Assembly (NCBI RefSeq): GCF_022458985.1
Contig: NC_061779.1
Span: 12,350,501 to 12,414,500 of the forward strand
Source of the DNA: Mugil cephalus
Taxonomy: Eukaryota; Chordata; Actinopteri; Mugiliformes; Mugilidae
Length of the DNA stretch: 64,000 bases
Direction: 5' to 3'
The position numbers and the translations under genes are program-made. Shown here in pieces: positions 18,447 through 23,632 of the stretch (positions are counted from its first letter, which is position 1; every line of letters starts with the position of its first letter). Below the pieces are notes generated by a model. It had not been told where the DNA came from. It made no database searches and saw nothing but the letters and a program-made list of their open reading frames with translations.

Positions 18447-23632
<5,186 letters not shown>

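Follow-up and report, generated by a model that had tools for sequence, protein, structure and literature searches.

Does the last intron of an impdh1 gene of Mugil cephalus contain the fish counterpart of the 17-nt exon that alters the C-terminus of mammalian retinal IMPDH1, and is such an exon also present in the other copies of the gene in the same genome? The impdh1 gene modeled here occupies positions 18447..23714 of the window (the whole stretch of 64,000 nucleotides that was analyzed), on the + strand like all features of the gene described below, and the donors and acceptors of the model, once checked, proved to be GT-AG in every intron. The gene begins with an upstream retinal-type first coding exon (18447..18682), which we take to be the one known as "exon A." This exon gives a 79-residue N-terminal extension like that of the human 595-residue isoform (PDB 7rfh), with an end nearly identical to the human one. 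The core follows in 13 coding exons (19335..23256, somatic ATG at 19336), assigned by alignment with human IMPDH1 (PDB 7rgi), to which residues 1-535 of the 546-residue product can be aligned, and by the Pfam matches of the product to IMPDH and CBS. In the gene model the penultimate coding exon (23173..23256) ends in ...GGVHGLHS and leaves a split codon, TC, ahead of a last intron of 354 nt (23257-23610). The coding part of the terminal exon (23611..23714) has two reading frames, used according to the presence of the micro-exon.

Two further observations concern the region 5' of the gene. Positions 18007-18026 carry ATGGTTGCCCTCATCAACAG followed by GT, with a weak-looking donor (GTTGGC); joined to 19335, this segment would add an in-frame MVALINS before MADYLI and could be an alternative start. 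Just upstream of impdh1 lies a protein kinase gene (14006-16442; Pfam Pkinase on a 164-residue fragment), which tentatively resembles ripk2.

The last intron contains a 17-nt micro-exon, ATATTCTTTTGTGCCAT (23465..23481), which codes for (S)YSFVP(F) and was recognized by its splice sites, its frame, and the likeness of its peptide to human YTFLP. Its donor is GTAAGT (23482..23487), and the upstream signals, likewise read in the sequence, span 23424..23464, with a pure pyrimidine run of 22 nt (23424-23445), a branch-point-like TTAAC at 23444 whose A lies 18 nt 5' of the micro-exon, a UGC at 23451-23453 (-14 to -12 relative to the micro-exon), and the AG acceptor at 23463-23464. This is the sole AG-N(3-40)-GTRAG arrangement of the last intron. 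Its weak points are the T at position -3 of the acceptor and the last base of the exon, which is T and not G. An earlier note on this DNA had placed a pyrimidine tract, an AG, exactly 17 nt, and a GTAAGT donor in the last intron, and its coordinates, length, and both splice sites are exact, so the observation is confirmed. The micro-exon has the attributes of the vertebrate retinal IMPDH1 exon, namely, a location in the last intron, a length of 17 nt, an AG and a consensus donor, a YTFLP-like peptide, and a switch of the final exon into its extended frame.

Without the micro-exon, the terminal exon reads (S)YEKRLY-stop (stop at 23630-23632), giving a somatic product of 513 residues that ends in HSYEKRLY, presumably also the ending of the canonical human protein. 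With the micro-exon, whose 17 nt are not divisible by 3, the frame of the last exon changes, and the extended frame supplies (F) and 37 further residues before a stop at 23712-23714. EKRLY is thereby replaced by 38 residues and the product grows from 513 to 546 residues from the somatic ATG, the figure given in the earlier note and returned by translation of the spliced model; adding the upstream retinal exon brings the predicted length to 625 residues. The same note counted a new tail of 39 residues, which holds only if the shared Tyr is included, its codon falling inside the micro-exon when the latter is spliced in; 38 residues actually differ.

The fish sequence HSYSFVPFTRSGFTE can be aligned with HSYTFLPFTKSGCTE of human retinal IMPDH1 (PDB 7rgi and 7rfh), and in both human retinal chains (7rgi with 546 residues and 7rfh with 595) GLHSYTFLPFTKSGCTEDSGGGRGGGGDAPQCPL stands opposite a 32-residue fish stretch. 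Human and fish share the proximal tail HSY[ST]F[LV]PFT[KR]SG.TE, while the distal tail of the fish has diverged. The earlier view that the tail sequence differs between fish and mammals therefore does not stand for the first 12 residues, which align with the human tail free of gaps; the distal part is weakly alike. With human and mouse retinal IMPDH1 the fish gene has in common the use of the last intron, the 17-nt length, the frameshifted final exon, and a product of 546 residues from the somatic ATG. A conserved length had been proposed for both exon and protein, and it applies to the 17-nt exon; we rejected conservation of the 546-residue length itself as a coincidence, since the fish protein has one residue fewer than human in the core (EKNN-SQK, where human has EKSSSSQK) and one more in the new tail (38 residues against 37). 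The N-terminal extension has 79 residues in the fish and 49 in human, and the full forms have 625 and 595.

The mammalian features named in the earlier note, a tiny retinal exon in the same intron and a 546-residue human isoform, are both documented. PMC11450717 describes a 17-nt exon at the matching place in ∼80% of the IMPDH1 transcripts of human retina samples, reports two peptides from the new human tail, and cites the exon in mouse retina as well. The human 546-residue form (PDB 7rgi) was used together with the 595-residue form in PMC7176436, and PMC10507268, citing others, calls it the predominant photoreceptor isoform, with lower sensitivity to GTP. PMC10507268 also gives the new human tail as 38 residues; 37 fits the totals of 514 and 546.

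A short AG-17-GTAAGT arrangement could arise by chance in a T-rich intron and never be spliced, and the splice motif alone is indeed not rare: AG-N(3-27)-GTAAGT occurs 20 times on the + strand of the window and 9 times on the - strand, with a 17-of-20 pyrimidine tract in 3 and 1 of these, respectively, and with exactly 17 nt once per strand. What places the micro-exon above chance is the match of its encoded peptide to human YTFLP. YSFVP scores 22 against YTFLP (BLOSUM62) and ranks first among the 455 AG-N17-GT sites of both strands, the next reaching 8, and random codons with the composition of the window give a score of 22 at a frequency of 2.5e-5. T-rich DNA can spell a YTFLP-like peptide by chance when splice sites are not required, as in the acceptor tract of the impdh1b-like gene described below, where YLFLP (score 23) is spelled out but lacks splice sites; once AG and GT are demanded, the micro-exon is the only site above 8. 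Its length and position in the intron are also those of the human exon, and the matching peptide lies in the matching frame, so that a chance arrangement is very improbable.

The full tail scores 71 against the human tail, a value reached by 0 of 5,000 shuffles. Part of this likeness has another source. TRSGFTE is the out-of-frame reading of the YEKRLY codons plus stop, and its conservation is therefore partly a by-product. We rejected it as proof of selection on the new tail, since YEKRLY shares its codons and the impdh1b-like gene, where no micro-exon was found, reads SRSGFTE in the matching frame. Past the dual-read codons, the tail scores 34 against human (reached by 99 of 5,000 shuffles), and SFVPF against TFLPF alone scores 21 (reached by 94 of 5,000 reorderings, a stretch of this length allowing only a small number of different orders).

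The weak likeness of the distal tails would also fit a real micro-exon that was gained independently in fish, or one that fish use mainly outside the retina, the tissue of use in fish being a prediction. Against this, the same position, length, and frame, together with a matching five-residue peptide, favor common descent, and the same gene carries a retinal-type first exon. Convergence or use in another tissue is thus hardly more credible than chance. The exon, its splice signals, its frame, and the homology of its peptide are established directly, and the interpretation offered in the earlier note is supported. We regard the micro-exon as orthologous to the 17-nt IMPDH1 exon of the mammalian retina, in an impdh1a-like gene, with a probability of roughly 0.93.

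The signals around the micro-exon resemble those of retinal micro-exons controlled by SRRM3/4 and Musashi (RetMICs), with which it shares its shortness, a pyrimidine tract, and a UGC before the acceptor. The 22-nt run, TTAAC, and UGC of the fish intron fit the layout of Srrm4-type micro-exons given in PMC12626420, and SRRM3/4 can promote most retinal micro-exons according to PMC10987577. Micro-exons are often in frame (PMC12626420), whereas the fish exon shifts the frame. The layout of a pyrimidine tract with a UGC directly 5' of the acceptor is present at the micro-exon, and, as defined here, at 26 of the 4,163 AG sites of the + strand of the window; it is therefore suggestive only. UGC alone was rejected as support, since, among the 14 remaining impdh1 acceptors listed, 5 have TGC within 20 nt. 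Dependence of the IMPDH1 micro-exon on SRRM3 was not found in the excerpted literature on retinal micro-exons. As for Musashi, the double knockout in mouse lowers the inclusion of an Impdh1 exon, which one being unspecified in the excerpts of PMC7948980, and Murphy and colleagues described an enrichment of UAG downstream of the exon (PMC4991804). Such a downstream cluster, enriched but not universal, is absent here, with no UAG in 23482-23607; the UAGs of the last intron (23302, 23308, 23407, and 23462) all lie upstream of the micro-exon.

To place the gene among its paralogues, we searched the same genome (635 Mb, 24 contigs), a single genome that cannot speak for other fish. Six matching exons were recovered in three places, namely, the gene of the window, an impdh1b-like gene (C22), and an impdh2-like gene (C1); the names impdh1a, impdh1b, and impdh2 are provisional assignments from features and similarity. 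The last intron of the impdh1b-like gene (1,465 nt) has no inner GTRAG donor and two AG-N17-GT sites, none of them matching, and that of the impdh2-like gene (216 nt) has neither an inner GTRAG donor nor any AG-N17-GT site, in a scan that would miss a micro-exon with a weaker donor. The best ungapped match of the 17 nt in the impdh1b intron is 12/17; Markov copies of the intron reach this value in 164 of 500 cases, and the match therefore gives no sign of a decayed exon. The impdh1b-like gene does have a retinal first exon (L010:6538-6749, MEGFGYDYYG..., with a GTGAGT donor). With this exon present and the micro-exon not found, the N-terminal module is therefore in both impdh1 copies and the C-terminal module is seen only in the copy of the window. 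We lean toward the view that the retinal modules became separated after the impdh1 duplication, both copies having the N-terminal exon and only the window copy the C-terminal micro-exon with its dual-coding last exon, so that this fish would naturally separate the two modifications believed to affect feedback by GTP.

If the micro-exon is used as in mammals, the photoreceptor spliceosome would be expected to include the 17 nt, under a regulator that may be Musashi, as the mouse Impdh1 exon suggests, and/or SRRM3/4. Inclusion would put the last exon in the other frame, with a 38-residue tail starting SFVPFTRSGFTE in place of EKRLY. This tail most likely lowers sensitivity to GTP feedback, as is reported for the human isoform. 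Feedback would then be weaker, and we propose that photoreceptors could therefore go on making guanine nucleotides at high GTP.

The micro-exon adds one more example of a retinal exon already known, and the biology is largely known. The title of Cleghorn 2022 (JBC) reportedly describes the retinal isoform of zebrafish as highly conserved. According to PMC12486205, zebrafish photoreceptors mainly express impdh1a tvX1, a variant described as resembling human retinal IMPDH1 in structure and function. That fish and mammals share a conserved retinal isoform is therefore already in print. The excerpted literature on Impdh1 micro-exons holds no description of a 17-nt exon in fish, which is not proof that it is unpublished, and our modest new point is the comparison of paralogues.

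Because a 17-nt frameshifting exon has been retained in both fish and mammals, the altered IMPDH1 tail is probably an ancient adaptation of photoreceptors, and fish should serve reasonably well as a model of retinal disease caused by IMPDH1. The second impdh1 copy, seemingly without the micro-exon but with the other retinal exon, could help to separate the roles of the two.
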